In this document: one piece after another, positions 16,081 through 38,888 of the stretch
Position numbering within the stretch: the stretch's first letter is position 1
Layout: every line of letters starts with the position of its first letter
DNA from: Boseongicola sp.
GTDB taxonomy: Bacteria; Pseudomonadota; Alphaproteobacteria; Rhodobacterales; Rhodobacteraceae
NCBI GenBank assembly: GCA_028824715.1
Contig: JAPPCV010000171.1
Coordinates: forward strand, 1 to 53,680
Length of the DNA stretch: 53,680 nt
Direction of reading: 5' to 3'
Notes under the pieces: generated by a model
Database searches by the model: none
Told to the model about the DNA's origin: nothing
The model's input: only the letters and a program-made list of their open reading frames with translations
Translations under genes and position numbers: made by a program

Positions 16081-16092
16081 CTGTCTTCTCCT

Positions 16093-19679: not shown

Positions 19680-20450
19680 CTAGCTCAAGAGTTCCAAGCT
19701 GGCCTCAAGCGCCACATGATCTGACACGAAATCGCCATTCTTGCCGTCCAGTGCCAGCCCGAGCAGTTGCACTTCGAACCGGTCCGTGGCGAAGATGAAA
19801 TCGATCCACCGGACTGACGTCGCGTCGCCGACAAAATGAGGGCTGTCGTCGGGAAAGGTATTGCGGTTGCGGCGCAGATCAGTGCCCGAGAACAAGTCGC
19901 GCAGCCCAAGTCCACAGTCCGTGATGCCGGAAATCGGCGGAGACTTGGGCGTCGCATTGAAGTCGCCGACCAGGAGGATTGCATCGGTCTGCCAGTGCGC
20001 GGCCGCAGCAGTCAGATGACCGATGATCGTTCTGCACTGGGCAAATCGTTCGCGATGTTGCTCGTGGCGAAATGCGAGGTGCGTGTTGGCGACCAGCATC
20101 CTTTGCCCGTGATAGTCCAATACGGTGATCTGCAGCCTTCTTAGCCCGTCGCCTTCGGCCGGCGGCAACATGAAGCTATCGAATGACAGCAAGGGCAGGC
20201 GCGACAGCGTGGCAAGCCCTTCTTCCCTGTCCTCCCACTGGTATTGCGAGGAATAGAGGCGCGTCATGCCCGGTACCTGCGTGCACACAAGATCCGATTG
20301 CGGGCGACCGGCGGGCGTGACTGGAGATACCTCCTGAAGGCACACGATTTCCGGCTGGGCATGGTTCAAGTATCTGTCCAGGCGCCGCATTCGGTCGCGG
20401 AAGTCACAGTTGAGATTCCACAGGTTCAGTGAGAAGATGTTGAATGCCAT
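19680..20450 (-). CDS. Endonuclease/exonuclease/phosphatase-family hydrolase
   Basis: This 256-residue protein has the DNase I-like phosphoesterase fold with its motifs in order: FSLNLWNLN (metal Asn), EIVCLQEV (metal Glu), ANTHLAFRHEQHRERFAQ (His), LVGDFNATPKS (Asp/Asn), RWIDFIF and VSDHVALEA (catalytic Asp-His). No signal peptide is seen, so it is probably cytoplasmic. The family includes sphingomyelinases, inositol phosphatases and other phosphodiesterases as well as nucleases. As the last gene of the catabolic cluster, 58 bases after the second PHP gene, a small-molecule phosphodiester is more likely than DNA. The specific substrate is unknown. Confidence 0.88.
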   Translation of the reverse strand: MAFNIFSLNLWNLNCDFRDRMRRLDRYLNHAQPEIVCLQEVSPVTPAGRPQSDLVCTQVPGMTRLYSSQYQWEDREEGLATLSRLPLLSFDSFMLPPAEGDGLRRLQITVLDYHGQRMLVANTHLAFRHEQHRERFAQCRTIIGHLTAAAAHWQTDAILLVGDFNATPKSPPISGITDCGLGLRDLFSGTDLRRNRNTFPDDSPHFVGDATSVRWIDFIFATDRFEVQLLGLALDGKNGDFVSDHVALEASLELLS

Positions 20451-20508
20451 GCTGCCTTGATCCTTGCCTCTTTCCCGTTGGGCTTGAGGCTGCGCGCCGG
20501 GGCCCGGT

Positions 20509-22023
20509 TCATTTCGGCGCCTCGAAATAGACCGGGTTTGACAACGTGCGTCGAATGGGAGGCGCGGCCGTCAGCGATTGTTGGGCACGGGGAAGTTCGG
20601 TCCCTTTTGCACACCAGTCCCTCAGGTCCTTGATTGCCCTCGCCCGGCTCGCGTCAGCGAGGATCTCGGCACGCAGGAACCTGCCGGGCATCGGCAGGCG
20701 TATGGTCTCGTTCCAGGCATCGTCTGGAATGAGCATCTCGGAAACCGGTCCTTCCTCGCCGACCCAGACCAGACGATCGCCGGACGCGCCCCTCACCTCG
20801 ACCTCGAGCGTGATGTCATCGCTGCCCGTCACCGTGCTCCCCATCGGCTGGCCATCCGCGGTGAAGGCAAGATGCGGCCCGGTCGGAGACTCGGTGACAT
20901 ATCCATGACCGTTTCCTAGCGCTTCGACGACCGCACAGGCGTCCAGGCGAGGCAGCCAAAGCACGGTCGTCGGCTTGCCCAGCCCGACGGGACCTGGACG
21001 TTCCTGTTCTGCCGGCTGGTGGTAGTCGCTGCCTCCGATCAGGGATATCCGTCGACCATCAGCCAGGAACCGATCATACTTGGCCAAGACGCCGTCGTTG
21101 CTGGTTAGCCAGTGGCCATGAAACACCTCCATGCAATCCATGTCGGGGTAGTCGAAGTCCCAGGGGAGCGGTTCCTTGTCGTGGTTTATCGAAAGAATGG
21201 CGCCCTGCCGCCTCACTTCGCGCACCAGGGCGTCCAGATCGGTGCTGTTGGCAAGGCGGAAGTCGATCCATTCGTTGAGGCCGAAGACATTTGCGTGGCC
21301 GCGGTAGGTGGTGACCTCCATACCCGGTATGAAGACCAGGTCTTCAGAACTCCGGGGACCGAAATACCGCCATTGCGACGTCGTGTTGTGGTCGGTGACC
21401 GCAAGGAAATCGAGACCCGCAAGCCGCGCGCTTTCGGCCAGCAATTCCGGCCCGCCGCGGGCGTCGCTGTGATGTGTGTGACAATGCAGGTCACCGCGAT
21501 ACCAACCCGGGCGTTCACCCCGTGGTGTGGCCGGTTTCGGCGCGGCAGCCACCTCGCGCGGGGCTGCGTCGGCCATCAGCGTCAGGCGCACCGCCACGCC
21601 ACGGTCGGGCACGCGGTACATCCCTAGCAACAGCTTCCAGCGTCCCGCGGGCATCAATCCTGCGTAATACCCGGGCGTTGCCGCATCGGTGGCGACAAAG
21701 AACTCGTTGCGGGCGCTGCCGCTCCAGCCGCGAAATCCGGATCTGGTCGGATAGTCCGTGGCCCGGCTGTCCATGATCCCGATGTCGAGGGCGCAATCTT
21801 CGGCCTTTGCATATTCGAAACCGACATCGAGCCGCGTCACGCCCGAGGGAAGCTGAAACGGGATTTCCAGGAATGGCGTTCGGGCCTTGTCCGCCGGAGT
21901 GACGGTCAAGTTGATCTCGGAGACTTGCCCTGGTGCAAGGACGGGTGAGACCATGATCCTAGCCCGCTCCACGTCTGGTCGCGAAACGGTCAGTGGCGCG
22001 CCACACTCGTCCCATCCCTCCAA
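20509..22023 (-). CDS. CehA/McbA-family PHP metallohydrolase (first)
   Basis: This protein has up to 504 residues: an N-terminal beta-rich domain (about 1-170) followed by a PHP domain. Metal motifs are DLHCHTHHSD, LAVTDHNTTS, SINHDKEPLPWD, EVFHGHW and LIGGSDYHQP, and a C-terminal beta-rich region follows. The TTG at 22023 lies three bases after the preceding stop. An ATG at 21954, with GGAGCGG about ten bases upstream, is an attractive alternative that would remove 23 residues. The family includes carbaryl hydrolases, but most members are probably phosphoesterases or amidohydrolases of unknown substrate. No signal peptide is evident. Tandem with a paralogue immediately upstream. Confidence 0.88.
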   Translation of the reverse strand: MEGWDECGAPLTVSRPDVERARIMVSPVLAPGQVSEINLTVTPADKARTPFLEIPFQLPSGVTRLDVGFEYAKAEDCALDIGIMDSRATDYPTRSGFRGWSGSARNEFFVATDAATPGYYAGLMPAGRWKLLLGMYRVPDRGVAVRLTLMADAAPREVAAAPKPATPRGERPGWYRGDLHCHTHHSDARGGPELLAESARLAGLDFLAVTDHNTTSQWRYFGPRSSEDLVFIPGMEVTTYRGHANVFGLNEWIDFRLANSTDLDALVREVRRQGAILSINHDKEPLPWDFDYPDMDCMEVFHGHWLTSNDGVLAKYDRFLADGRRISLIGGSDYHQPAEQERPGPVGLGKPTTVLWLPRLDACAVVEALGNGHGYVTESPTGPHLAFTADGQPMGSTVTGSDDITLEVEVRGASGDRLVWVGEEGPVSEMLIPDDAWNETIRLPMPGRFLRAEILADASRARAIKDLRDWCAKGTELPRAQQSLTAAPPIRRTLSNPVYFEAPK

Positions 22024-22026
22024 TGA

Positions 22027-23418
22027 TCAGTGCCAGGGTTCGCCCTCCTTTCCCACGAAGACAGGGTTCGTCATGCCGTGGAGCCCTTCGGCTCGGTCGC
22101 GCAGCTCCAAGGCAAACCAGCTTCCCGGCTCCGCCTCTGTATCAACGGTTGTTTCCAGGCCTTGTCCTGCATGCCAGCGCTGGACCTCCTTGCCCCGCCG
22201 GATCAACCTCAGGCTGAGGCTTGTCAGATCCTGGCCGGCTTTGCCACCCTGACAGCCACAGGTCAGTCGCACCGGCCCTTGTGCAACAAGATCGCCCATT
22301 TCCGCTGTGTCACCGCCAACGGTCGTCGCGCGCAACGTCAGGTCCGGACCGCTGGTGACATAGCTCCGACCGCGCCTCAGGGCGGTCAATATCGCTTCGG
22401 GCGCATTGTCATCGGCTAGGACCCTGTTTGCGGCAAGCCGGTGATTCGCAGGGGCTGGCCGATGGGTGTCGGTGCCTGCAGTCGCCACCATCCTGTAGCC
22501 GGCGTTCAGCCAATGATAGAACACCTGAACCGCGCCTTCGTTTTGGCTTCGCTCCGCCCAAGCCCGGTTCCAGACTTCGACATGGCGCGCAGGTCCCGGG
22601 AGCATGTCCGAAAACGCCCAGCGGCAGCCTGTGCAAAACGGATGCCCCTCGCTTCTTGGATGAGCAATCACGAACAGGCCGCCACGGTCCAGCACGGCCC
22701 GGGCGACATCGCTCATCGTGGTGCCGTCCTTGACCCGCCAGTCGATCCAGCCTTCAAGACCCAGCACCAAAGCGTGACCGTTGAATGTGGTGAGTTCCAC
22801 GCCATCGATCACGGTGATCCCGTTCCCGGCCAGGCGCCGGACATGCGGCACGGCCGAAACCGTGTTGTGATCGGTCAAGGCCACGAAATCGTACCCGCGC
22901 CGGCAAGCGATCTCGAGGTAGTCCGCCGGACTGAATTCGCCGTCGGAATGAAATGTATGACCGTGCAGATCACCCGTATACCAACCGGCACCCTTCCGTT
23001 TCGGCGCACACGGCGTGTGCGGCATCGGGTCAGCTGGTGGCGCCTTGCACTCTTCGGCATCGCAAGCAATCTCGATCCGGTAGGTGACATTGCCCGGTGG
23101 CAGGATGCGGTGTACGTCGACTTCCACGATCCATTCACCAGCCTCGATCTCGCCGGGCAGATATCCAGGAGAGGCCCAGCTTCGTGAAATCACCGGGCTC
23201 TGGTCGGCGTTGTTGTGCCGAGTTCCCCGAGCACCATCGGGTCCATAGACCGAGATGCTGAGCTGATGCGCAATGTCGCCGACGCCGGGATGCCGGGGCG
23301 AAAAGGAAAAATCCAGTCGCAGCGTGCCGGTGTTTTCGGGCACGTCAAAGCTGTGCGGCACATGGCACGCCATGTGGTCAAGCGAAAGTCGTCCTTCAAT
23401 TACCTGGTGCATGCGCAT
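22027..23418 (-). CDS. CehA/McbA-family PHP metallohydrolase (second)
   Basis: This 463-residue protein has the same architecture as the downstream neighbour: an N-terminal beta domain (RLDFSFSPRHPGVGDIAHQL), then PHP motifs DLHGHTFHSDGEFSP, VALTDHNTVSA, VIAHPRSEG, VEVWNRAW and AGTDTHRPAP. The two paralogues share motifs but little else by eye, so they have diverged toward different substrates or steps. The stop is three bases from the next gene's TTG start, indicating one transcript. Upstream lies a degraded ABC-ATPase fragment, then the intact transporter ATPase. Confidence 0.88.
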   Translation of the reverse strand: MRMHQVIEGRLSLDHMACHVPHSFDVPENTGTLRLDFSFSPRHPGVGDIAHQLSISVYGPDGARGTRHNNADQSPVISRSWASPGYLPGEIEAGEWIVEVDVHRILPPGNVTYRIEIACDAEECKAPPADPMPHTPCAPKRKGAGWYTGDLHGHTFHSDGEFSPADYLEIACRRGYDFVALTDHNTVSAVPHVRRLAGNGITVIDGVELTTFNGHALVLGLEGWIDWRVKDGTTMSDVARAVLDRGGLFVIAHPRSEGHPFCTGCRWAFSDMLPGPARHVEVWNRAWAERSQNEGAVQVFYHWLNAGYRMVATAGTDTHRPAPANHRLAANRVLADDNAPEAILTALRRGRSYVTSGPDLTLRATTVGGDTAEMGDLVAQGPVRLTCGCQGGKAGQDLTSLSLRLIRRGKEVQRWHAGQGLETTVDTEAEPGSWFALELRDRAEGLHGMTNPVFVGKEGEPWH

Positions 23419-24068
23419 TCACTTTGTCTTGCTGCCTGCTCTTGGCACGCAGCCTTGCCATGCGCCCGAATTCCCGCCAAGGCGATTCCGTCCCTTCGGT
23501 GACAGTCGGTCAGGCGACCGTCCGCGTCGGGCTGGCATGACGGAATCGCGCGCTGGCACCAATCGGTCCCAAACGCGCGACGGTCTGGAGACGCGCAACC
23601 GGGCGCCAGGTCCGCGGAATTGGCCGTCAGTGCCTGCAGGGCCTCGCGCGACGCCATTGGCGCGTGCAGGGCCGGCATCACTGCCGCTTCCAACCGAACC
23701 GGTGAAACGGGATGCCGGGGCGGAGGATGAATCCGACTGGTCCCTGCCACCTCGACGATGCGGCCGGCGCACATCACTGCCACGCGGTCCCGGATCCTCG
23801 ATGCCACGTTCAGGCCGTCGGTCACGAACGGGCAGGCAATGCCCCGCTGCTGCTGAAGATCCTGGAACAGGTCCGGGGGCTGCGCCTGAACCGAGACGTC
23901 CAGTGTCGAGACAGGCCTGCCGGAAACAAGGATACGTGGCCCAGGCGCCCGGGATTGCGCAATCCCGATCCCTTCGCGCTGACCCCCGAAGCCCGTCCCG
24001 CGTGGGACGGGCACCGGCCCGTGGATCGAACACTCCGGAATCGACCAGGCTGTCCGCGTTCCTGTCAT
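23419..24068 (-). pseudogene. Decayed ABC-transporter ATPase, C-terminal half (OppF/DppF type)
   Basis: One minus-strand frame still reads ILVSGRPVSTLDVSVQAQPP, DLFQDLQQQRGIACPFVTDG, LNVASRIRDRVAVMCAGRIV and DGRLTDCHRRDGIAL. These align with the Walker B to C-terminal region of oligopeptide-type ATPases, including that of the intact neighbour (IIADEPVSALDVSVQAQVLN). Key residues are lost: the Walker B DEP is GRP and the switch His is Gly. Walker A and the signature motif are absent. It is a fragment of a formerly separate ATPase gene or an old partial duplication, lying between the transporter ATPase and the PHP genes without obviously interrupting the direction of transcription. Confidence 0.72.
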
Positions 24069-24184
24069 GCGTCAATTCGACGTCCGACCGCGCCAGGTCG
24101 CAGGGGAACTCGTCCGGGGCATGTGGATAGTGACTCTCCCCGGACATCGGAGGGCGCCCCACAATGGCCAGGGGAGAAGGGCGA

Positions 24185-26272
24185 CTATGAGTTGGGCCCG
24201 GGGCGGCTCTCAGGAAGGTTCTCATTGCGTAGTCCGTGCAGGACAAGGGCTTCGGCGTGATGGCAGGCCACCAAATGCCCTCTCAGGTTGCGCATTTCAG
24301 GCACTTCATGCGTGCAAGCGTCGGTCGCGTAAGCGCAGCGTTCCGCAAAGACGCAGCCCCGTGGAAGGCTCGAGGGATCCGGCGGATCGCCGGGCAAACG
24401 CAAGTGACTGTCCTGATCGGCTCGACCTGGCGTCAGCACTGCGCTCAGGAGCGCCTCGGAGTAGGGGTGTCGAGGGCAGTCCAGAATCTCGTCCGTATCC
24501 GCCAGTTCGACAATCCGGCCAGCATACATCACCGCTACCCTGTGAGCGAGGCTCGCCACCACGTTCAAGTCATGCGAGATGAAGATGTAGCTCAACCCGA
24601 GACTGGACTGAAGGTCGCGCAACAGGTTCAGCACTTGCGCCTGTACCGACACGTCAAGCGCGGAAACCGGCTCATCCGCAATGATGACCTTCGGGTCGGG
24701 GGCAAGTGCTCGCGCCACGCCAATCCGCTGACGCTGCCCTCCCGAAAACGCATGGGGGTAACGGCCTGACATCTCCGGGTCCAGCCCCACCAGGCGGAAC
24801 AGTTCGTGCACCTTCGTCACCAGGTCCGGTTCGGGAGGTGGTCCGCCCGGGCGTTGACGTAACGGCTCGGCCACAATGTCGAAGGCGGTCATGCGCGGGT
24901 TCAACGAGGAGAACGGATCCTGAAACACCATCCGGATCGATTGTCGAACATTGCGCCATTCAGCGGCAGAAAGATCGGTGATGTCCCTGTCCAGCCCATC
25001 GGTCGCGAACATCACCTGGCCGTGCGTTGCCTCATGGAGGCCGACAATGGTCTGTCCCAAGGTGGTCTTTCCGGAGCCGGATTCGCCGACGATCGCCAGG
25101 GTTTCGCCCTGCCGCAGTTCAAGGGAGATGTCCTGCACTGCCTTGATCTCGCGCACCCGTTGCCCGAACAGTCCTTCCCGCTTCTCGAATGTCTTGCTGA
25201 CAGAACGCAGGTCCAGAATCCTCTCGCCGAATCGCTGCGACTCTCTCGTCTTGGTCCTTTCGGGCCGCTCCGGTTGCAATGACAGGTCGAACATGGACGC
25301 GGCGTCTCCGAAGGCATGGCAGCGAACATGCGCTCCACCGGAACGCACAAGCTCGGGTCTTTGCACGTCACAGAGACCGGGCCTGGCAAATGCGCAGCGT
25401 GGTGCAAAGGCGCACCCTGCCGGACGCTCTTCCAAGGTAGGTACCGTTCCCTGGATCGTCGCCTGGCGGTATTGGCCGCGCCCTGGCAGTGACGCCAGGA
25501 GCGCCCGGGTGTAGGGGTGCCTCGGTGTCGTCAGCACGTCCGCCTTTGTACCGTGCTCGACGACCTCGCCCAGATACATCACCACCACCTCATCGGCCAT
25601 GCGGGACACGACCCCTAAGTCATGTGTAATGAACAGGATCGACATGCCCTGGCTTTGTTGCAGTTCCTGCAGGAGATCGAGGATCACGGCCTGGGTCGTG
25701 ACATCAAGCGCCGTCGTCGGTTCGTCGGCGATCAGAAGCGATGGGTGCGGACCCAGGGCCATTGCGATCATCACGCGCTGCTGCTGCCCGCCTGACAGTT
25801 CGAACGTGTACGCATCAAGGCGTTGCGCCGGATTGGGCATGCCGACGGCATGCAGGAGGTCGAGCGCGCGCTCGCGCGCCTGTTTCCTTGTCACGTCCTG
25901 GTGTCGGCGGACCGCTTCCATTATCTGGTTGCCGACCGTGTAGAAGCTTGACAACGCGGTGAGGGGTTCCTGGTAGATCAACCCTATGCGTCCACCCCGA
26001 ATGTCGCGCAGGACGGGACTCTTCTCGGACGTTCCTGCCAGGTTCACGCCCTCGAACAGGACTTGTCCGCTGTCGATGGTCGCGTTCGTGTCGAGAATGC
26101 GCAGAATGCTGCGCGCGGTCAGAGACTTGCCGCAACCCGACTCTCCTACGATTGCGACCGTCTTTGCATGCGGCAGATCGAATCCGACATCCCGGAGCGC
26201 TATGCTTCGGCGACGCCTGTCCCTGAATGAGACGGTCAGCCCCTGCAGCGAAAGGAGTGCGTCAGTTCGCAT
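24185..26272 (-). CDS. Fused double ABC ATP-binding protein (OppD-OppF type)
   Basis: This 695-residue protein carries two complete ATPase domains. The N-terminal half has GESGCGKS, LIYQEPLTALSSF, LSGGQQQRVMIAMAL, LLIADEPTTALD and ITHDLGVV. The C-terminal half has GESGSGKTTLGQ, VFQDPFSSLNPRM, FSGGQRQRIGVARAL, VIIADEPVSALD and ISHDLNVV. Each is followed by the Cys-containing oligopeptide-ABC tail (GCAFAPRCAFARPGLC, GCVFAERCAYATDAC). The ATG at 26272 overlaps the upstream permease stop by 11 bases. This GsiA-like fusion powers the importer formed with the two permeases and the binding protein upstream. It is intact. Confidence 0.92.
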   Translation of the reverse strand: MRTDALLSLQGLTVSFRDRRRRSIALRDVGFDLPHAKTVAIVGESGCGKSLTARSILRILDTNATIDSGQVLFEGVNLAGTSEKSPVLRDIRGGRIGLIYQEPLTALSSFYTVGNQIMEAVRRHQDVTRKQARERALDLLHAVGMPNPAQRLDAYTFELSGGQQQRVMIAMALGPHPSLLIADEPTTALDVTTQAVILDLLQELQQSQGMSILFITHDLGVVSRMADEVVVMYLGEVVEHGTKADVLTTPRHPYTRALLASLPGRGQYRQATIQGTVPTLEERPAGCAFAPRCAFARPGLCDVQRPELVRSGGAHVRCHAFGDAASMFDLSLQPERPERTKTRESQRFGERILDLRSVSKTFEKREGLFGQRVREIKAVQDISLELRQGETLAIVGESGSGKTTLGQTIVGLHEATHGQVMFATDGLDRDITDLSAAEWRNVRQSIRMVFQDPFSSLNPRMTAFDIVAEPLRQRPGGPPPEPDLVTKVHELFRLVGLDPEMSGRYPHAFSGGQRQRIGVARALAPDPKVIIADEPVSALDVSVQAQVLNLLRDLQSSLGLSYIFISHDLNVVASLAHRVAVMYAGRIVELADTDEILDCPRHPYSEALLSAVLTPGRADQDSHLRLPGDPPDPSSLPRGCVFAERCAYATDACTHEVPEMRNLRGHLVACHHAEALVLHGLRNENLPESRPGPNS

Positions 26273-27356
26273 AAGGGTCCGCCGCGTCTCGAAGCCCGTC
26301 GCCAAGGAAATTGAGCGACAGGACGGCCACAACGACCGCGGCACCCGGCAGGAACAGCCACGGAGCGGTGGCTATCGATCTCAGGTTCTGCGCTTCCTGC
26401 AGCAGCACGCCCCAGCTGACAACCGGCGGCCGCAGTCCGATTCCCAGGAAACTCAGCGACGTTTCCGCTATGATCATTCCCGGAATTGCCAGCGTTACCA
26501 CGGCAATGATGTGCGACAGGAAGTTGGGCACCATGTGCCGCCGGATGATCCGTACCGGCCGGTTGCCGTCGAGGAGCGCCGCCTTGACGAAGTTCTCGTC
26601 CTTCAGCGCCATGAATCGCCCGCGCACCACCCGCGCGAGCCCGGTCCAGCCGATGATCGAAAGGATCGCCGTGATGAAGAAATAGGTCCTGATCGGTGGC
26701 GTGGTGGGCGGGATGGCGGCGGCAAGCCCGATCCAGAGCGGGATGGAAGGCAGGGACTGCAGAAACTCGATCAACCGCTGGATCGCCAGATCGACGATGC
26801 CGCCGAAATAGCCCGAGACGCCACCTATCGCAATGCCGAGAACGAGGCTGATTCCGACACCCACCAGTCCAATCGTCATCGAGACACGCGTCGCGTGGAT
26901 CGTGCGGCTGAGAACGTCGCGTCCCAACCGGTCCGCCCCAAGGAAATACACCCGTTCGCCGGGGTCCTTCGGGCCGACGAAATGAAGGTTCGCCGGGACG
27001 AGTCCCCAGAACCTGTAGCTGTCGCCGCGCACCAGGAAACCGAGCTCGATCACTCTTTCAGGGTCTTCCTCGAAGACTCGCTGGCCCGTGTTGTAGTCCG
27101 TCGTGGAGCGCAGGCCGAAAACATGAGGCTGAATCCGTCGGCCGTCCGGGCCATCGAGAATCCAACGCACGTTCTGGGGCGGCGCATAAACGTCCCTGGC
27201 CTGGTAAGTGTTCGGAGCATGCGGTGCGAGGAATTCCACGAAAGCGGCCACCAGATAGATCAGGAGCGTCATGACGCCGCCGAAGATTCCCAGGCGATGG
27301 CGCAGGAATCGGCGGATCACGAGCTGGGAGTGACTCAGGTGCGCGGCGTATGTCAT
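26262..27356 (-). CDS. ABC transporter permease (OppC/DppC type)
   Basis: This is a permease of about 364 residues with an N-terminal span (LGIFGGVMTLLIYLVAAFVE), a long periplasmic insert (about residues 50-140) typical of the YejE-like group, then five spans and the EAA loop FVKAALLDGNRPVRIIRRHM. It starts at the ATG at 27356, which overlaps the preceding stop by one base (TGATG) and has AGGAG eight bases upstream; a GTG one codon earlier is also in frame. It is co-translated with the OppB-like permease. The long insert suits large or unusual substrates rather than dipeptides. Confidence 0.92.
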   Translation of the reverse strand: MTYAAHLSHSQLVIRRFLRHRLGIFGGVMTLLIYLVAAFVEFLAPHAPNTYQARDVYAPPQNVRWILDGPDGRRIQPHVFGLRSTTDYNTGQRVFEEDPERVIELGFLVRGDSYRFWGLVPANLHFVGPKDPGERVYFLGADRLGRDVLSRTIHATRVSMTIGLVGVGISLVLGIAIGGVSGYFGGIVDLAIQRLIEFLQSLPSIPLWIGLAAAIPPTTPPIRTYFFITAILSIIGWTGLARVVRGRFMALKDENFVKAALLDGNRPVRIIRRHMVPNFLSHIIAVVTLAIPGMIIAETSLSFLGIGLRPPVVSWGVLLQEAQNLRSIATAPWLFLPGAAVVVAVLSLNFLGDGLRDAADPYAN

Positions 27357-28363
27357 CACATCATCTCCTGGCTTGCCGCTTGGCGCCGGATCTTCGGATC
27401 AAGCAGCATCAGGAGCAGGTCCGAAACGAGCGTTCCAAGTACCGCCAGGAAGCTCAGGAACATGATCAGAGTCGATGCCAGGTAGAGGTCTTCTTCCTTC
27501 AGTGCTTCAAGCAGCAAGGGGCCCGTTGTCTGAAGGCCGAGCACAACGGCCACAATGGTCTCGCCGGAGACGATCTTGACGAACAAGTCGTTCAATTCCG
27601 ACACGAACGGGTTCAGCGAATGGCGCACCGGATACTTGAGCAACAGGTGAGTCTCGCCAAGGCCCTTGGCGCGGGCCGTCAGGACGTACGGGCGATGCAG
27701 CTCGTCGAGCAGGTTGGCGCGGATCTTGCGGATGATTTCGGCGGTTCCTGCGGTGCCCAGCACGATCACCGGGATCCAAAGATGCGAAAGCAGGTCCGCG
27801 AACCGGGCCAATGTCCATGGCGCATTCACGTATTCCGGCGAGAACAGGCCGCCAACGCTCTGTCCGAAATAGCGGAACGAAATGTAAAGCAGAACCAGCG
27901 CCAGCAGGAAATTCGGAATGGCCAGGCCGATGAAGCCCAGGAAAGTGAAGACATAGTCGCCCAGCGAATACTTTCGCACCGCCGCATAGATTCCGACCGG
28001 GATTGCCACGATCCAGACAAAGAGCAACGTGACGACCGACAGGAGAGCCGTCAGGCCCAGACGCTGGCCGATCAGTTCGGAGACGGGCAGGTCCCAGCCG
28101 AACGAGTAGCCGAAGTCCCCGCGAAGCAGGATGTTGCGGACCCATACGAAATACTGCTCTACGGCGCTTCGGTCCAATCCGTAGTTGCGGCGCAGGTCCT
28201 CGATTTCATGAGGCTCCAGGTTTTCGCCGTACTGGTTGGCCTCCTGCACCAGCCTGTCGACGAAATCTCCCGGCGGCAGGATGATGATGAAGAATGAAAT
28301 GACGGAAATCGCAACGACGGTAAGCAGCATCAGGACAAGACGGCGAGCTAGGAAGCGGGCCAC
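27356..28363 (-). CDS. ABC transporter permease (OppB/DppB type)
   Basis: From the GTG at 28363 this encodes 335 residues (MARFLARRLVLMLLTVVAIS...). The GTG has GAGGAG eight bases upstream, a better start than the in-frame upstream ATG at 28414. It has six spans, the PPGDFVDRL segment following the first span as in OppB proteins, and the loop YVLTARAKGLGETHLLLKYP. It forms the heterodimeric channel with the adjacent OppC-type permease. It follows the binding-protein gene by 65 bases. Confidence 0.92.
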   Translation of the reverse strand: MARFLARRLVLMLLTVVAISVISFFIIILPPGDFVDRLVQEANQYGENLEPHEIEDLRRNYGLDRSAVEQYFVWVRNILLRGDFGYSFGWDLPVSELIGQRLGLTALLSVVTLLFVWIVAIPVGIYAAVRKYSLGDYVFTFLGFIGLAIPNFLLALVLLYISFRYFGQSVGGLFSPEYVNAPWTLARFADLLSHLWIPVIVLGTAGTAEIIRKIRANLLDELHRPYVLTARAKGLGETHLLLKYPVRHSLNPFVSELNDLFVKIVSGETIVAVVLGLQTTGPLLLEALKEEDLYLASTLIMFLSFLAVLGTLVSDLLLMLLDPKIRRQAASQEMM

Positions 28364-28428
28364 GTTCTGTCTCCTCGGCTGCTTTGCGGAAAGGGCGCGT
28401 GCGCCCTTTCCCAAGTCTTGCTTGCAGC

Positions 28429-30409: not shown

Positions 30410-30425
30410 CTACACGCGCGTGCAG
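30410..30425. promoter_or_regulatory. Candidate LacI-family operator (site 1)
   Basis: CTACACGCGCGTGCAG pairs with itself except at one position in each arm. A closely related 16-mer occurs at 32777-32792. This one lies between the binding-protein gene and the LacI gene, the natural position for transporter control by that regulator. Confidence 0.55.
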
Positions 30426-30503: not shown

Positions 30504-31553
30504 CTATGTTTCGCGGCGGCCTATTGTTCCGCGCAAGACCAGCTCCGCCACCATTGTTCGTGGCTCGAACTTCCTGTTTTGCGGGTCCAGCCGCCTCTCG
30601 AGAATCGCGGTGACCTCCGCGGCCATGCTGTCGATGTCCTGGCGGATGGTTGACAGGTTGTAGATCGGCCAGCTTGCCATGAATACGTCGTCGAACCCGG
30701 CAATTGACACATCCTCAGGGACGCGGTGCCGGGTCTTGAGCCGAAGGTAGTCCATGACGGCAAAGGCCATCACGTCATTGGCGCAGAAGATCGCGTCAGG
30801 CAGGTTCTCGCCTGCCACAAGGGCAGGGGCCGCCTTGAAGGCCTGATCGTAGGAGAATTCGCCACTCGCCTCGACGGCAAGGTGCATTCCCCTGCGCGCG
30901 ATCTCCAGGGCAAGCGCATCCCGGCGAATCTTCGAAGAGACTGACGACGATCGACCGGCCATGAATCCGATCGAGCGATGCCCGGTTTCCCAAAGGTATT
31001 TCACCAGCTCCGCAATGCCCGCTGCGTCATTTGCTGCAATGCTGTCAACATCAGCACGTGTTCGTTCGAAATTGAGCATGATCGGACGCACGTACGGCAC
31101 CGCGTGCCGGGCAACGTCGACCGACACCGAATCCGACATGACGATCAATCCCTCGACAGGGAATGTCAGATGTCTCTTCAGCGAGAATGCGCCATCATCC
31201 GTTGGAGACAGGTTCAGCACCACGGGAAGGCGTCCGGATTCCTGAAGCGACCGGACAAGTGCTGAGTGGAAGCTCGGTCCCCTGATCGCATCGACCTGAT
31301 TGAGGACGAGAACGACTATGTTGGATCTGCCCTTGGCCAAGCCGCTTGCCAGGCTGTCGGGGCTGTAGTTCAATTCGGCAGCCGCCTTCATGACCTTGGC
31401 CTTCGTTTCGGCAGCGATGTAGGCGGTCTGCGAGAACGCGCGTGACACCGCCGAGCGCGACACGCCGGCCAGCTCCGCCACATCGCTCGCACGGGCACGC
31501 TTTCCCGTAACCGATCCTGATTCTCCCGTTGCCGATCTCAATGACGTTGACAT
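30504..31553 (-). CDS. LacI-family transcriptional regulator
   Basis: This is 349 residues from the ATG at 31553, which has GAGG about eight bases upstream. The N-terminal HTH is ARASDVAELAGVSRSAVSRA with the hinge helix YSPDSLASGLAKGRSNIV; the periplasmic-binding-like sensor domain ends with PEDVSIAGFDDV and STIRQDIDSMA. It lies between the PhyH gene and the transporter genes and is the only regulator in the catabolic cluster, so it is the likely pathway repressor. Longer in-frame extension to 31688 overlaps the PhyH gene and is not needed. Two matching dyads nearby are its candidate operators. Confidence 0.93.
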   Translation of the reverse strand: MSTSLRSATGESGSVTGKRARASDVAELAGVSRSAVSRAFSQTAYIAAETKAKVMKAAAELNYSPDSLASGLAKGRSNIVVLVLNQVDAIRGPSFHSALVRSLQESGRLPVVLNLSPTDDGAFSLKRHLTFPVEGLIVMSDSVSVDVARHAVPYVRPIMLNFERTRADVDSIAANDAAGIAELVKYLWETGHRSIGFMAGRSSSVSSKIRRDALALEIARRGMHLAVEASGEFSYDQAFKAAPALVAGENLPDAIFCANDVMAFAVMDYLRLKTRHRVPEDVSIAGFDDVFMASWPIYNLSTIRQDIDSMAAEVTAILERRLDPQNRKFEPRTMVAELVLRGTIGRRET

Positions 31554-31612
31554 TCGCACTACCTCAATCAAGCCGTTCCCAAACCGCCGCGTGTGCGGTT
31601 GCCGAACCTTGT

Positions 31613-32482
31613 TCAAGCCGGCTCGTTTTCCAGTCGGGACAGGAAATGGTGAACCGAGAATTCCTCGTCTCCGCTCAACAGCCTCCAAAGCCGGGTCCGC
31701 TGGATGACGTCAAGATGTGCGCTCCGGATGTCTGCCCAAGGATGAAAGAACGACAGCTGCCCCTGAACGTCGTGCTTGCACGTCGCCGGCGAATGCAGCG
31801 GCTTTGGCGCGCGGGCCCTGGCAGCGTCGTAGCCTGACATGTCCCAATGGCCGGTCTGCGACCCGGTCGGATTCAGGCGCAGCTTGTACATGGCGCGCAC
31901 GCTGTCGCTCGCGTTGCGCCGTCCGGCATGCCAGAGATTGTGATGCAGGATCAGGACGGTTCCGGCAGGACCGGTCAACTGAACCTGGCCCGCCAGGTTC
32001 TGATACCGGGCAATGCTGGTCTCCCCGACCTTGCGCGTGTGGCTTCCGGGGATGACCAGCGTTCCGCCCATCTCCCGCGTCACGTTCTGCGGATAGATCA
32101 TGACCTGGATGTCGAATGCGGCGTCCCGGGCATCAATCATTGCATCGCAATGCAGGTGTTGAGAAGCTGCCTGATCGGGCCCGCGGATATGCATGACATG
32201 GTGATCGACCTTGCATCCTGGCCCGAGAAGCGAGTGGATCGCCCCGGCGAGTTCCGGAAGGGAGACAACGCGGGAAAGGACATCGTTGTCGTCAAATGCA
32301 TCGGTGAGCGGAGTGCCCCACGGCACGACAGGCAACCGCGCCCGGCCGCATCTGTCGTCCGGGCAGTCCGCCACGTAGGCGGCAAGAAAGGCGTCGCAAA
32401 GATCCTCGGGCAACAGGCCTTCCAGCTTGAGAAACCCGTCCCGCACGAATCGAATCATTTCGCCGACGCCAAGTCGCTTCAT
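31613..32482 (-). CDS. Phytanoyl-CoA dioxygenase (PhyH) family protein
   Basis: This 289-residue Fe(II)/2-oxoglutarate oxygenase has the facial triad HLHCDAM (HxD) near residue 110 and the distal His in ILHHNLWHAGRRN. YPQNVTREMGGTLVIPGSHT and the DSVRAMYKLRLNP segment (2-oxoglutarate-binding Arg candidates) are typical. The ATG overlaps the stop of the upstream 90-residue gene as ATGA. In the cluster it could hydroxylate or oxidatively trim a substrate-derived moiety. Substrates of bacterial PhyH proteins are diverse and cannot be read from sequence. Confidence 0.9.
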   Translation of the reverse strand: MKRLGVGEMIRFVRDGFLKLEGLLPEDLCDAFLAAYVADCPDDRCGRARLPVVPWGTPLTDAFDDNDVLSRVVSLPELAGAIHSLLGPGCKVDHHVMHIRGPDQAASQHLHCDAMIDARDAAFDIQVMIYPQNVTREMGGTLVIPGSHTRKVGETSIARYQNLAGQVQLTGPAGTVLILHHNLWHAGRRNASDSVRAMYKLRLNPTGSQTGHWDMSGYDAARARAPKPLHSPATCKHDVQGQLSFFHPWADIRSAHLDVIQRTRLWRLLSGDEEFSVHHFLSRLENEPA

Positions 32483-32751
32483 CTCGGAGCCTCCACGATT
32501 TTCTCCATGATGACTTCGAAGGATTGCCAGCCGGGCTGGTAGCTCAGTTCGCCAGGTCGCGGCTCGAGAGCGGAGAACTGGATCGTGCGCCAGCCGTCGC
32601 GCAATGCATCCAGACCCGTGGCGTAGGGCGGCTCGTCCTCGTCACCAGAAACAGGCGGTGCGGTCGTGTCGCCGTCATATCGCGTCCAACCGACAACGCG
32701 GGAATCGAGCGCGGAGTTCTGGAGATACAGGATGAGCAGTTTCTGACGCAA
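32479..32751 (-). CDS. Conserved 90-residue hypothetical protein
   Basis: A TTG at 32751 follows AAGGAGG at five bases, a near-perfect ribosome site that fixes the start. The protein (MRQKLLILYLQNSALDSRVV, then WTRYDGDT, DEDEPPYATGLDALRDGWRT, QFSALEPRPG, FEVIMEKIVE) is small, acidic and aromatic-rich, and its last codons overlap the PhyH start as ATGA. I recall similar small proteins with a DEPPYATG-ALRDGW core in bacterial carbohydrate operons, but no function is known to me. It lies just downstream of candidate LacI operator 2, so it and PhyH probably form a regulated transcript. Confidence 0.78.
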   Translation of the reverse strand: MRQKLLILYLQNSALDSRVVGWTRYDGDTTAPPVSGDEDEPPYATGLDALRDGWRTIQFSALEPRPGELSYQPGWQSFEVIMEKIVEAPR

Positions 32752-32776
32752 TTGGACCTCCTTGATCACGTAGAAT

Positions 32777-32792
32777 CTGCAAGCGTGTGCAG
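32777..32792. promoter_or_regulatory. Candidate LacI-family operator (site 2)
   Basis: CTGCAAGCGTGTGCAG has the outer dyad CTGCA...TGCAG and shares the consensus CTRCANGCGNGTGCAG with site 1 at 30410. It lies 26 bases upstream of the TTG start of the 90-residue protein. Confidence 0.55.
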
Positions 32793-33421: not shown

Positions 33422-33540
33422 GGCATCCTGGCCCTGAAGGCGGAAGGGCTGTCCGTCTCTGGCCGTGGAGGCTTGCGTCAGACGGGCACATCGCCCGTGG
33501 CAGCCTGAAGCGTGAAGCCCCGTCCTCCAGGGCGGGGAGC
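33422..33540 (+). mobile_element. TnpB-type C-terminal tail with IS200/IS605 end hairpin
   Basis: The plus strand reads GILALKAEGLSVSGRGGLRQ followed by TGTSPVAA and a TGA at 33506. This resembles the variable C-terminal tail of alphaproteobacterial TnpB proteins as I recall them. Nine bases later comes CCCCGTCCTCCAGGGCGGGG (33518-33537), the stem typical of the right end and guide-RNA region of such elements. The catalytic domain is not recognisable. It sits between two genes of the catabolic cluster and directly precedes the 3' end of the IolG-like gene. A dead remnant. Confidence 0.5.
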
Positions 33541-33542
33541 GG

Positions 33543-34574
33543 TCACGCGAACGCGCCCTCATGAACCTTGCAGGAAACGAGCGAGCCCGCATCCCGGGAC
33601 TCGCTGGCTCGTTGCGCAATGAATGAAGCCATGTAGCCGTCAACTAGATTCGGCCTGACCGCATCGCCATTGCTGACGGCATCGAGAAATGCGGTATCCT
33701 GAATGAAATAGGCCTCGGGATAGCGGGCAAACCAGTCGGGCGAGATCGGACCGCGATGCAGGCCGCCAGCGTCTTCGTGGAACACCAATGGCTCGGCGGG
33801 ATTGGGAACTGACAGACGACCGCCGGCGCCAAAGGCCTCGACGCGCTGGTCATAGCCGTAACTCGTACGCCAACTGTTCTGGATGACAACCTGCTGGCCG
33901 CGCGTGCCACGCATTACCGTCGTCGCAGTGTCGATATGACCCACACTTGCATAGCGTGGATCGATCAGGGCGCCGCCCAGGCACAAGAGCTCGCAAATCT
34001 CGTCATCGAGCAACCAGCGTGTCAAGTCAAAGTCGTGGATGGCTGTCTCGAACAGCAACCCCGCCGACATTTCGAGCGACTCCACGGATGGAGCGGAAAA
34101 GTCCCGGCTGACGATTCGCAATTGTTCAATTTCGCCGATGTCGTTTGCCAAGATGCGTCGTTTCAGAGCCGCCATGCGCGGGTCAAAGCGGCGGTTGAAG
34201 CCCACTTGTATTCGATCCGCGAAGGGTGTGAGTGCCGGCATGGCCGCGTCGATGGACGCCATGTCGCTTCCCAAGGGCTTCTCGCAGAGCACATAGGCTC
34301 CGTTTGGAACGATCTGAACCAACTGTTCCACATGTGCTGCCGCCGGCGTGACAACAAAATATGCGTCGAACGTGTTCGAGGACAACGCCTCGGCCAGCGG
34401 CAGCCATTCGGCCCCGAGTTCGCCGGCCAGTTTCTGGGCGCGCAAGGGGTCTGCATCGCAAAGGCTGAGGCCAGACAGGTTGGAATGCCTGAGGATGTAC
34501 TCGCCGTGAAGCCTTCCCATGCCGCCGCACCCCACAAGGCATACATTGAGCCCGCGTTTCTCAACCGCGGTCAT
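33543..34574 (-). CDS. Gfo/Idh/MocA-family oxidoreductase (IolG-like)
   Basis: This 343-residue protein has an N-terminal Rossmann domain (VCLVGCGGMGRLHGEYILR), the EKP motif in VLCEKPLGSD, VGFNRRFDPRMAALKRRI and the catalytic AIHDFDLTRWLL segment. IGEIEQLRIVSRDFSAPSVE and the DFD motif are close to inositol 2-dehydrogenases. The ATG at 34574 overlaps the iolE stop by 14 bases. Next to IolE it probably oxidises an inositol or related cyclitol to the inosose, or acts on a glycosylated derivative. Confidence 0.88.
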   Translation of the reverse strand: MTAVEKRGLNVCLVGCGGMGRLHGEYILRHSNLSGLSLCDADPLRAQKLAGELGAEWLPLAEALSSNTFDAYFVVTPAAAHVEQLVQIVPNGAYVLCEKPLGSDMASIDAAMPALTPFADRIQVGFNRRFDPRMAALKRRILANDIGEIEQLRIVSRDFSAPSVESLEMSAGLLFETAIHDFDLTRWLLDDEICELLCLGGALIDPRYASVGHIDTATTVMRGTRGQQVVIQNSWRTSYGYDQRVEAFGAGGRLSVPNPAEPLVFHEDAGGLHRGPISPDWFARYPEAYFIQDTAFLDAVSNGDAVRPNLVDGYMASFIAQRASESRDAGSLVSCKVHEGAFA

Positions 34575-35484
34575 GATTCGGGTTCCTGTCAAACGGGATG
34601 GCGTGCCGTTCAAGCAATTCGGAAACATGCGAGAACCCGGTTTTCGCCATGGCGAGCGGTGGAGCCTTCAATGGGTCTTGCTCCGCTTCGACCACGAGCC
34701 AGCCATCGTAGCCGTGCGCGGCAATTCTCCGGATCAGCGGGCCGTAGTCGAGGTCACCGTCACCCGGTACCGTGAAGACGCCCTCATGCACTGCCTCATC
34801 AAGCGTCTGCCCGTGCGGGTCGAGAGTGTCACGGACAGATCTGCGAATGTCCTTCAGGTGAATGTGGGCTATCCGGCTCCACCATCTTTCCATTACGACC
34901 CTGTAGTCGCCGCCTGCCATTGCCACGTGACCAGTGTCGAGAAGAAGGCGAAGCGGTTCACCTGCAGCGGACATGAATCGATCAATCTCGTCCACGGTTT
35001 CAACCGGCATCATTACATGGGGATGATAGACCAGTTGCAGACCGGATTCACTTGCACGGCTTGCAAAGTCCGTCACGCGCCGAGCGTAAGCTTGCAGGTC
35101 AAGATCATCCAGGGGTGGCGTCTGCGCAAGGACAGCCGTGGAACCTCCCGCCGGTCCGGCCGCGCACTCCCCGTAGACCATTACGCGGCACCCAAGCGCC
35201 GCGAGATGCCTTATCATTGGCAACGCTTCCGGCCATTCATCCTCGACAGACCGCTCAGCAAGGAATCCGGAATACCAGGACGTGACTGGCTCAAGTCCGA
35301 AACTTGCAAGGGTTGCAATGACAGTTTCAGGCTGCTTCGGGAATTTTCGGCCCAGTTCGATGCCGGTGAACCCGGCCCGTGCCGCTTCGGCAATGCAAGT
35401 TTCGTAACTGATGTCGTCGCCGAGTTCCAATATCGCTTCGTTGGTCCAGCTCAAGGGACTGACACCAAGTTGCACTTTGTTCAT
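34561..35484 (-). CDS. iolE: Myo-inosose-2 dehydratase-like protein
   Basis: This 307-residue TIM-barrel isomerase/dehydratase carries the IolE signatures LGVSPLSWTNEAI, GIELGRKFP, VTSWYSGFL, RVMVYGECA, LVYHPHV...VETVDEIDRF, LLLDTGHVAMAGGD, HIHLKDIR, VFTVPGDGDLDY and WLVVEAEQDP. In the inositol pathway this enzyme dehydrates 2-keto-myo-inositol. It is co-transcribed with the IolG-like gene. The remaining iol genes (B, C, D) are not in the window, so either they are elsewhere or these enzymes act on a modified inositol or another keto-sugar, as many IolE/IolG paralogues do. Confidence 0.82.
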   Translation of the reverse strand: MNKVQLGVSPLSWTNEAILELGDDISYETCIAEAARAGFTGIELGRKFPKQPETVIATLASFGLEPVTSWYSGFLAERSVEDEWPEALPMIRHLAALGCRVMVYGECAAGPAGGSTAVLAQTPPLDDLDLQAYARRVTDFASRASESGLQLVYHPHVMMPVETVDEIDRFMSAAGEPLRLLLDTGHVAMAGGDYRVVMERWWSRIAHIHLKDIRRSVRDTLDPHGQTLDEAVHEGVFTVPGDGDLDYGPLIRRIAAHGYDGWLVVEAEQDPLKAPPLAMAKTGFSHVSELLERHAIPFDRNPNHDRG

Positions 35485-36274: not shown

Positions 36275-36700
36275 GTCACGTCCACGCTTCCCCGGCAAGC
36301 GCGACGTCAATTGTGCACCCCGGCGCGAAAACGCGCCGTGGATCAACTTGATGCCCCGCGTCTCCCGAGACTCGTCGACTGGCATGAAGTCCCGGCCGGA
36401 CGGGACCAGCACGGAAATGTCGTGGTAGTCCGCCCAAGCAAGGCTGATCATGTCGGTTGCAATGCGACCATCGACACCGTTCCCTTCCGTCCCCCACGTG
36501 TTCGCACCTCAAGCCAGGCGCTCGGCGGCCGCGCCTTGGCAGGTGGGACGCACGGGTGGCGAGCGCCACCGCTGGCGTGGCACGATCGAAACACTCACGC
36601 CGGGATGCGTGTCCGCCACGGCCACCACGGTCGTCGCCCATCGGTGAAGCGGCTGATCAGCTTCGCGAGCCGGGTCATGCGAGCCATGGAGGATCAGCTC
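36275..36700 (-). pseudogene. NYN-domain protein remnant
   Basis: Two minus-strand frames carry consecutive parts of one NYN (PIN-like nuclease) protein: ELILHGSHDP...PLHRWATTVV and THPGVSVSIVPRQR in one frame, then GRIATDMISLAWADYHDISV, LVPSGRDFMPVDESRETRGI and KLIHGAFSRRGAQL in another. The switch near 36500-36460 marks a frameshift with loss of the zinc-ribbon-like linker. The usual acidic residue in VSSDRDF is changed (VPSGRDF). The N-terminal part is unrecognisable. The gene lies between the DUF5054 gene and iolE and is clearly dead. Confidence 0.62.
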
Positions 36701-36929
36701 TTGATGCTCACTCGCGGCTCCGACATCGATGACCACGAATGCCGCGAGCGTGAACGGTGGCCCGGGCCATTCCAGGGGCCTGCGTGCTGCAGGCGGAAGA
36801 TTCCCGACTTGTGGTTCCGGCCAGCGCCGCACGCAGGCCAGCACTGCAGATCGCCCGGAATGCCGGGCCAACGGCAGGCGCATGGGCCAAGTGAACGTTC
36901 GCGACGCGAATTTCCCGCGGTGTCAAGAA

Positions 36930-38888
36930 CTACCGGGTGCAAGACAGCGACACGTGAAAGCGGAACGCGAGATTTCCCTCGCACCACATCGGGAAATTCG
37001 TGCCCCACTTGTTGTTGTGCAGGCAAAACCTGACGCCCTGCCGCATCGCGATGTCGCCGCGATAGAATGGCAGGAATGGCGTCTCGGCAGGCCCGGCCAG
37101 CGGGCAATCCAGCGGTACGATCTGCAGATGCTGGTTGCCTGATGTCATGCAGCTTACCGATTGGACGGCATGCAGCTGTCTGTTTCCATTCTTGACTACC
37201 GCCCTGGGATCCACATCGTAGTCAAGCTTGCGAAAGCGCCAACTTCCTGGATGCACCGTCGGCGCAAAGGTCACAAACGATGCCTCCGGCATCCGGTTCG
37301 CCGGTTTGTCGAACAAACAGACCGTGACTTCCAGCGTGTCGCGATCAACGAACCGGTAGCGGAGTTCCGGCGCGCCCGGAGCGCCCAGATCATCCGCTGC
37401 GGTTCCTGGGAACTGGAATTTTCCGATTGCCTGGCTGCCTCCTTCCTTTGCCACGCCCATCCATTTCGGCTCGAAGATGCCCGAACGGGCGGTGCGCGAA
37501 AGTTCCAACCCGGGTTTCCCGTGATCCTGCACGCTCCAGTGGGCGAATTGGGTCAAGTAACTGTCTGCATAGTCTTGGTAGTCCTGTGCATCGTAGCTCT
37601 CATAGGTGAGTGCGGCCAGCTGCCCCTTGGCGCTCGCCAGGTCGCAGCCATTGGGAAAGCGCACACGGAAGAGCCCGCCCGTCGCCTTGTCGAAGTCCAG
37701 TTTGCCATCGCCGAGGGTCAGCGATCCTCGCTTTCGAACCGCGGTGGCGGATGGCTGCAGGGACAAGGGAGTGGCGGCACTTTCGGCTTCTTCCCGATCC
37801 TCGGGGGGCAAGACCGAAACCGCGTCATCGATCAATGCCTCCTGCTCGTGCCAGGAACGCTCAGTCAGGGCGAACCTGGAGTCGAATTGTCTGGCGGTCT
37901 CGAAGTCCTGTCGGTCCCAAGCCGCTTCGTCGCGAAGAAAGGTCTTTATGTCGACGCCCCAGGTGTGCTCGGCAACCATGCACAATCGGCGGCCCATTGC
38001 TTCGCGCTGCGGAGTCAATCCCTCGCGCGCCCAATTGCCGTAGAGTCGCCTCAGCGCCATGTATCTTGACATTTTGGTCGGTGCCGTCCCGACCCCATGG
38101 ATCCAGCTGTCGGCAATCTCGTCGGCAACAACCGGAAACCTCTCGCGTTGTTTCCACAGCAGGTCACCAAACTCATTGAGTGTCGAAGCCGCAATGATCG
38201 TGCCGGGATTGTCACGCGCCATCAGCCGATGGGTTTCAATGACCTGAGCGATGCTCGGCGGTCCCATGTTGTCCGCAGCATGCCCGAATCCAATCCCTTC
38301 ATCCATTTCGCCGGGAAAATGCGTTGCGCCGTATTCGCCTTGATACATGACGACAAGTTCTTCCCCTCCGGCTGCCCGCCAACGGAATACCGGCGGCACG
38401 TCCGGAGGAGTGCTGGCGGAATTGACCCCGATGTGAAGGAAGCGGATGCCGCCCGCAGCCATCAGCGGCACAATGCCCAGCGTGTGGCCAGGGACATCCG
38501 TCAGCTTGGCCCCCGTCGTCAGGCGACCGAACCGGCGATCCAGATCCCGGCTGAAACCCAGTCCGGCCCTGAACAATTCCGCGGAAAGCAACTCCGTATG
38601 TGTCGTGTATGGCAACGCATGCCAGGTGATAGTCCCATTCTCGATCGCGTCCTCAAGTTTCCGCCGGCCCTCTGACGTTGCCTGTTCAAGGTGTTCGTGG
38701 ATCAGCCAGGCGCCGGCTGTCCAAATGAACTTCGGACTGTCGGGGTTTTCGCGCCAAAAGTGCTTGGCGGTCCGGATCGCCATTGGGACGAAGTGGTCGT
38801 GATACTGTTGGCGCACGCTGACGGCGTAATCAGTGAACCCGACATCAAGATGGGTCTTGAAGACCAGGTGGATTTTTCTCCTCGCCAT
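36930..38888 (-). CDS. DUF5054-domain, GH38-like glycosidase candidate
   Basis: This protein has 652 residues from the ATG at 38888, with GGAG nine bases upstream; in-frame ATGs at 38903 and 38930 are less well placed. The N-terminus KIHLVFKTHLDVGFTDYAVS has the HxD-type metal site of the GH38/57 clan, and KLTDVPGHTLGIVPLMAAGG supplies an Asp and His where GH38 mannosidases keep the nucleophile and a metal ligand. VAEHTWGVDIKTFL is a third conserved block. The C-terminal 300 residues are beta-rich. No signal peptide is seen, so it acts on imported material. I call it DUF5054 from motif recall; activity on alpha-mannosides is an inference. It heads the catabolic cluster. Confidence 0.85.
   Translation of the reverse strand: MARRKIHLVFKTHLDVGFTDYAVSVRQQYHDHFVPMAIRTAKHFWRENPDSPKFIWTAGAWLIHEHLEQATSEGRRKLEDAIENGTITWHALPYTTHTELLSAELFRAGLGFSRDLDRRFGRLTTGAKLTDVPGHTLGIVPLMAAGGIRFLHIGVNSASTPPDVPPVFRWRAAGGEELVVMYQGEYGATHFPGEMDEGIGFGHAADNMGPPSIAQVIETHRLMARDNPGTIIAASTLNEFGDLLWKQRERFPVVADEIADSWIHGVGTAPTKMSRYMALRRLYGNWAREGLTPQREAMGRRLCMVAEHTWGVDIKTFLRDEAAWDRQDFETARQFDSRFALTERSWHEQEALIDDAVSVLPPEDREEAESAATPLSLQPSATAVRKRGSLTLGDGKLDFDKATGGLFRVRFPNGCDLASAKGQLAALTYESYDAQDYQDYADSYLTQFAHWSVQDHGKPGLELSRTARSGIFEPKWMGVAKEGGSQAIGKFQFPGTAADDLGAPGAPELRYRFVDRDTLEVTVCLFDKPANRMPEASFVTFAPTVHPGSWRFRKLDYDVDPRAVVKNGNRQLHAVQSVSCMTSGNQHLQIVPLDCPLAGPAETPFLPFYRGDIAMRQGVRFCLHNNKWGTNFPMWCEGNLAFRFHVSLSCTR

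Follow-up and report, generated by a model that had tools for sequence, protein, structure and literature searches.

The window analyzed here is one whole contig (JAPPCV010000171.1, 53,680 nucleotides) of the 5.24-Mb, 181-contig assembly of Boseongicola sp. (GCA_028824715.1), and at positions 19680-38930 it contains a cluster of 13 genes, all reading leftward among the open reading frames (ORFs) with Pfam or NCBIfam support. We suggest, with a probability of about 0.5, that this cluster serves the catabolism of a water-soluble inositol phosphodiester bearing a sugar, e.g. the deacylated head group of a glycosyl-phosphoinositol (a glycerophosphoinositol glycoside or similar). In the order of transcription, the cluster encodes a DUF5054 protein, IolE, an IolG-like protein, a protein of 96 amino acids, a PhyH-family protein, a LacI-family regulator, a binding protein, two permeases and a fused ATPase of an importer, two PHP hydrolases (PHP1 and PHP2), and an EEP-fold phosphoesterase (EEP). 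On the plus strand inside the cluster, the one ORF scanned has no family match.

The initial annotation, made from the DNA letters alone, had named DUF5054, IolE, IolG-like, PhyH and LacI proteins, an oligopeptide-type importer, two PHP proteins and a DNase I-like phosphoesterase, and the Pfam and NCBIfam matches confirm all of them on the minus strand, to which all gene coordinates below refer. The small conserved protein described there is real and conserved in relatives, its length being 96 rather than 90 amino acids.

Conservation and block structure of the cluster

Three other Silicimonas genomes (G751, G752 and G753, behind loci L033-L035) contain all 13 genes in the window's order; hence, the clustering is not due to chance. 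These genomes were picked up through a DUF5054 search and do not represent the genus at random. The part from DUF5054 to the importer was read in L033-L035, and the part with the ATPase, PHP1, PHP2 and EEP genes in G751-G753. PHP1, PHP2 and EEP are 84-90% identical in the latter genomes, the DUF5054 protein is 85-87% identical to its copies from Silicimonas metagenome-assembled genomes (MAGs), which places the window near Silicimonas, and the IolG-like protein is 85-88% identical in L024/L025 and L033-L035. DUF5054 was found in 9 of 394 family genomes and in one of 289 class genomes (the own genome). PHP1 was matched at E 1e-60 in 3 of 390 genomes from the order and in 1 of 385 from the class, and the 96-amino-acid protein in 2 of 349 sampled Pseudomonadota genomes, the own genome being included in each of these counts for PHP1 and the small protein.

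The DNA alignment divides the cluster into three conserved blocks, that is, the DUF5054 gene, the IolE-IolG pair, and the genes from the small protein onward, separated by non-conserved spacers of about 1.4 and 0.8 kb. In G302, a genome from another genus, a block encoding the small protein, PhyH, LacI, the importer, PHP2 and PHP1 is followed by IolE-IolG, located downstream instead of upstream, and the genome has no DUF5054 match. In G308 there are only the importer, PHP2 and PHP1 genes, with no IolE, IolG, PhyH or DUF5054 beside the block. The importer and the PHP pair are thus retained in both genomes without DUF5054, which, like the dissimilar spacers, speaks against one pathway and in favor of three modules (DUF5054; IolE-IolG; the 96-amino-acid protein to EEP) that are adjacent accidentally or through linkage in a single genus. 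Still, the order is retained in the window and three other Silicimonas genomes, and in other families DUF5054 is again accompanied by similar functions, provided by different genes; we regard separate modules as quite unlikely. The initial observation of the cluster is confirmed, with the qualification that there are three blocks with non-conserved spacers and a decayed stretch at 23.4-24.2 kb.

This decayed stretch (23419..24184), located between the ATPase and PHP1 genes, is not a gene: traces of the ATPase 3' end are present in one frame and, by eye, those of a PHP N-terminus in another. It is also degraded in L153 (75% DNA identity). It looks like a rearrangement scar, and in G302 a PHP2-type gene directly follows the ATPase gene.

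Enzymes of the cluster and their genomic neighborhoods

IolE (34561..35484), an inosose dehydratase by family, scores 311 bits against TIGR04379 (cut-off 290). The next protein (33543..34574) scores 254 bits against TIGR04380 (cut-off 355), and therefore is called IolG-like only; the solved proteins that match it best are inositol dehydrogenases. At the position four residues before His, Glu replaces the Asp of the three best solved relatives, and the same Glu is present in four orthologues (L033-L035 and G302); the replaced Asp is presumably catalytic. Moreover, another contig of the same genome (C127) carries IolE-like, Gfo/Idh, iolD, iolC-like and iolB-like genes. In particular, iolD has 772 bits at the cut-off of 715 (weaker iolD matches are present in all 14 control genomes, exceeding the cut-off in three), and its neighbors are iolC-like (298.8 bits, cut-off 300) and iolB-like (150 bits, cut-off 205). 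Hence, the products of the window's IolG/IolE pair would have a pathway to enter.

The gene for the 96-amino-acid protein (32479..32769), which has no family match, overlaps by 4 bp the gene for the PhyH-family Fe(II)/2-oxoglutarate dioxygenase (31613..32482; E 5.6e-16, motifs HCD and WHAGRR). Its identity to the copies from four relatives is 89-92%, and to those from two distant relatives 47-48%; in all seven loci (e.g. L116:12010-12273, L135:14277-14537) the small protein stands beside PhyH. On a Streptomyces plasmid the pair lies inside an iolD-iolB-iolC cluster that also contains a phospholipase C family protein (PF04185 with PLipase_C_C).

Both PHP1 (22027..23418) and PHP2 (20509..21954) belong to the CehA/McbA family NF038032 (241.9 and 246.6 bits, respectively, at the cut-off of 80), PHP2 being below the cut-off of the Pfam PHP family. 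EEP (19680..20450) matches Exo_endo_phos (E 7.3e-18) and has the motifs LQE, NTHL, GDFN and SDH; catalytic-type motifs are present in EEP, PHP1, PHP2 and PhyH. The surroundings of eight PHP1 relatives outside the genus, at least 35% identical over most of the protein, were fetched: G302, G308, G405 and G310 (from 149 family genomes), G1058 and G726 (from 390 order genomes), and two plasmid-borne ones from Roseinatronobacter and Deinococcus aetherius (pDAETH-2). Other plasmid matches, e.g. from Deinococcus deserti, a second D. aetherius plasmid and Nonomuraea, were left out. A gene for a glycerophosphodiester phosphodiesterase (GDPD) is located within about 6 kb in six of the eight (Roseinatronobacter, G405, G310, G1058, G726 and D. 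aetherius), as compared with four of the 80 DUF5054 loci described below.

The maximum-likelihood tree of 37 PHP proteins shows that PHP1, together with the proteins from G302 and G308, groups with the GDPD-linked rows, and PHP2 with the DUF5054-linked rows; each label corresponds to one change, and the separate groups are well supported. Thus, the window joins both lineages. The tree covers 37 of 43 places, six reads having been removed as too short or too long (three PHP2 proteins from Silicimonas, L072, L061 and L117). It excludes matches below 110 bits; Deinococcus is absent, and five of the six GDPD-side loci are included. There are long-branch warnings, and the branch of Rudaea is long; L031 and the two PHP proteins from Rudaea, which likewise lie near DUF5054, are unlabelled. 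None of the 20 ORFs scanned within the window's cluster and next to it has a GDPD match in Pfam, and EEP may stand in for GDPD as the phosphodiesterase. Relatives of EEP on plasmids (eight records) are 26.6-30% identical to it. In addition, on a plasmid of the archaeon Haladaptatus salinisoli (L118), a CehA/McbA-type PHP gene has a GH76 gene, a Gfo/Idh gene and a sugar importer as neighbors.

The DUF5054 protein (36930..38888, about 652 amino acids; a longer ORF starts at 38930) matches DUF5054 with E 1.7e-41, the domain spanning residues 280-529, and is weakly GH38-like at its N-terminus. Residues H27, D29, D145 and H322 (numbered in the longer ORF) are invariant in all 28 aligned DUF5054 rows, that is, the window and 27 of the 80 loci described below; they may correspond to the zinc ligands and the nucleophile of GH38. 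Pfam GH38N matches 21 of the 28 rows at E up to 1, the best E being 4e-7, and the window's own protein has no GH38 match at E 1. No solved relative of DUF5054 was found: the profile search of solved structures gave two chance-level matches only. The protein is likely a glycosidase.

Neighborhoods of DUF5054 were analyzed in 80 loci, those of the 80 best among 296 relatives, each of 5-22 kb; bit-score thresholds were set by us, and absences are to be read as lower bounds. IolE-like genes are present in 33 of these loci and Gfo/IolG-like genes in 32, and three loci (two from Rudaea, one from a Proteobacteria MAG) also carry iolD and iolB. Such combinations of DUF5054 with IolG/IolE-like genes are seen in Devosia, some Rhizobiaceae and Rudaea. 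In Devosia, IolE is the sole NCBIfam family matched by the TIM-barrel protein (139.6 bits), and IolG is the best NCBIfam match of its Gfo partner (101 bits), both being below the cut-offs.

Among the nine family genomes with DUF5054, G000 and G1210 are from the own genus (the place in G1210 agrees with L035), G1301 was not fetched, and six were examined. In four of the six, all from outside the genus (G306, G1190, G1312 and G782), DUF5054 is adjoined by genes for an importer, GDPD, LacI and inositol monophosphatase, the latter having been read, for G1190, in L169 of G756; a PHP gene is present in three of these four. In G394, the genes next to DUF5054 encode Gfo, IolE-like, PHP and IolB proteins, and in G726 a contig end next to the DUF5054 gene cuts the neighborhood. 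The DUF5054 protein of Yoonia sediminilitoris, the nearest one outside the genus (67%), is likewise accompanied by an importer, GDPD, LacI and inositol monophosphatase (Pfam GDPD and Inositol_P), as well as by a calcineurin-type phosphoesterase. Since there are only 3-6 matches of the inositol monophosphatase family per genome in five genomes, its genes are unlikely to be neighbors of DUF5054 by chance.

Three members of the family also have a small nucleotidyltransferase-like gene near the DUF5054 cluster (L101:12032-12538, L169:5854-6369, L188:847-1362); the one from Yoonia is a Pfam Aminoglyc_resit match, and the other two are alike by eye.

Importer, regulator and surroundings of the cluster

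The importer consists of an SBP_bac_5 solute-binding protein (28429..30360), permeases of the OppB type (27356..28414) and the OppC type (26262..27356), and a fused OppD/OppF-type ATPase (24185..26272), all assigned by family matches. By eye, a signal peptide is seen on the binding protein and none on the enzymes, including the DUF5054 protein and EEP; the substrate would thus enter the cell whole. An Opp-type importer, 38-56% identical to that of the window, is located just behind the DUF5054 cassette in a Devosia MAG (L061:14376-20400).

Among proteins of solved structure, the pectin-binding SPH1118 is the best match to the binding protein. Among 11 ligand residues of SPH1118, as given in the available part of its structural description (PMC9314435), Arg57, Arg294, Glu505 and Trp594 are identical here (by eye), Arg438 is conservatively replaced by Lys, and six differ. 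An anionic, sugar-like ligand different from that of SPH1118 is plausible, since Arg57 and Arg294, retained here, contact MES sulfonates in the SPH1118 structure according to the same part of the source. Another possibility is that the importer belongs to a set of genes for the uptake and degradation of an acidic oligosaccharide (e.g. oligogalacturonide, the ligand of SPH1118), and that the inositol genes are unrelated neighbors. The relation to SPH1118 and the four identical residues, in particular Arg57 and Trp594, point in this direction. At the same time, the majority of the ligand residues are changed, no pectate lyase or uronate isomerase family is found among the Pfam matches of the scanned ORFs, and the importer block accompanies the PHP genes in G302 and G308, which makes this possibility highly improbable.

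The LacI-family regulator is encoded at 30504..31553. Upstream of the binding-protein gene, between the promoter-like hexamers TTGACC and TAGACT, there is a near-palindrome CTACACGCGCGTGCAG (30410..30425, strand unassigned), a possible LacI operator. Four relatives show conservation of this upstream stretch, with changes in the palindrome itself. As the frequency of the pattern is that of chance (14 found, 14.4 expected from shuffles), only conservation and position favor it as the operator. No common operator of the three blocks is seen in the alignments upstream of the DUF5054, IolE and binding-protein genes.

The ORFs scanned beyond both ends of the cluster belong to unrelated families or have no match. 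To the left, there is a separate catabolic set (11032-16794) comprised of a GntR regulator, an SBP_bac_8/6 importer and an enolase-superfamily enzyme. Fragments with transposase-type helix-turn-helix and DDE_3 domains are located at 19067-19663 and 2-982 of the window, and two resolvase-type genes at 4964-5581 and 6720-7340. To the right of the cluster lies a redoxin-like gene and, further out, a gene of the methylmalonyl-CoA mutase family.

Proposed pathway and its relation to known systems

From gene content, motifs, conservation, neighborhoods and phylogeny we infer the reactions, their order, the regulation and the substrate as follows. The binding protein and the Opp-type importer would take the substrate up intact. 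In the cytoplasm, the DUF5054 protein would take off a sugar, and EEP with PHP1 and PHP2 would hydrolyse the phosphodiester and then the leftover phosphate ester. The released inositol would be oxidised by the IolG-like protein and the inosose dehydrated by IolE, with the iolD-, iolC- and iolB-like products from the other contig continuing the pathway. PhyH and the 96-amino-acid protein would probably remove or oxidise a decoration, and LacI would govern at least the importer.

The glycosylated inositol phosphodiester put forward in the initial annotation is partly supported. Its inositol and phosphodiester parts are supported by independent neighborhoods in other genomes, and the glycosidase part, more weakly, by the GH38-like N-terminus with invariant catalytic-type residues; that one molecule unites all three we infer.

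Besides the block structure, the ligand of SPH1118 and the lack of a common operator described above, several observations weigh against the proposed pathway. As for the phosphoesterases, no GDPD is present on the fetched stretches of G302 and G308, a PHP1 relative from Haladaptatus (32%) has no annotated GDPD nearby, and CehA is known as a carbamate hydrolase. The PHP-like protein of the Streptomyces cluster is below the Pfam cut-off and unmatched by PHP1. In G562 the PhyH pair is located near a carotenoid oxygenase gene with no iol match, so the tie of this pair to inositol is loose. In the set of 80 DUF5054 loci, 16 have none of the 14 scored partner classes and 27 have no PHP match (among the latter are L033-L035, with PHP genes beyond the locus edge), and GDPD and inositol monophosphatase are present in only four loci each. 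Moreover, the stretch of G1312 has no PHP, the fetched 33 kb of G394 no GDPD match, and the Yoonia genome no match to PHP1 or EEP.

Some of the data could be explained by a modified inositol or an inositol glycoside without a phosphodiester (e.g. a methylated inositol or a galactinol-like compound), with the PHP and EEP proteins acting on esters or carbamates and PhyH demethylating. IolE is clear, the replacement of Asp by Glu in the IolG-like protein of the window and the four orthologues hints at an unusual inositol, and the Streptomyces iol cluster holds PhyH and the 96-amino-acid protein. In addition, a combination of Gfo, IolE-like, PHP, importer ATPase and LacI genes with no GDPD match is seen at 23 of the 80 DUF5054 loci. 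What such a substrate hardly explains is the presence of GDPD and inositol monophosphatase by DUF5054 and of GDPD by the PHP1 relatives, where a phosphate ester is to be expected; we consider it unlikely.

The closest analogue of the proposed phosphodiester pathway is the acc operon of the Agrobacterium Ti plasmid, responsible for agrocinopine: a sugar phosphodiester is imported whole via a cluster C binding protein and an ATP-binding cassette (ABC) importer, then cleaved in the cytoplasm by the phosphodiesterase AccF, with AccG as a putative phosphatase, and IolE/IolG, DUF5054, PHP and PhyH are not named for acc in the available part of the source (PMC4526662). Among the 60 listed of 69 solved relatives of the window's binding protein, no molecule name mentions AccA or agrocinopine. 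The window's cluster may work in a similar way; membership in the acc type is not claimed, because no GDPD, which we take AccF to be, was found in the cluster.

As in the bacterial myo-inositol (iol) pathway, there are IolE and an IolG-like protein, with iolD-, iolC- and iolB-like genes on another contig, but the window's IolE/IolG pair is a second one, tied to phosphoesterase and glycosidase-like genes. The N-terminus of the DUF5054 protein weakly resembles GH38 alpha-mannosidases, with HxD and D-x-x-G-H motifs, while its own DUF5054 domain, with no GH38 match for the protein, sets it apart. PHP1 and PHP2 retain the PHP-type motifs of the CehA/McbA metallohydrolases, but their neighborhoods suggest phosphate esters, not carbamate pesticides.

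The open-access literature yielded nothing on DUF5054 and no match for the gene set or such a system, including under glycerophosphoinositol catabolism, glycosyl inositol phosphorylceramide with GH38, CehA, and inositol lipids. Head groups of inositol phospholipids and glycolipids are a large pool of carbon and phosphorus in algae, plants, fungi and actinobacteria, and we know of no defined bacterial route for the use of the glycosylated ones. Tentatively, with the odds somewhat against it, one may think of an undescribed catabolic route for glycosylated (glycero)phosphoinositols that exists in variants (an EEP type, a type with GDPD and inositol monophosphatase, and a type with PHP and IolG/IolE) across Alphaproteobacteria and some Gammaproteobacteria, with DUF5054 as the hallmark glycosidase, CehA-type PHP proteins as phosphoesterases, and PhyH with the 96-amino-acid protein as a new oxidative step. 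If true, DUF5054 would receive its first role, and branches of the CehA-type PHP hydrolases, which are known from the breakdown of pesticides, a natural one; for the gene sets in Devosia, Rhizobium, Ensifer and Agrobacterium, there would be a class of substrates to test.

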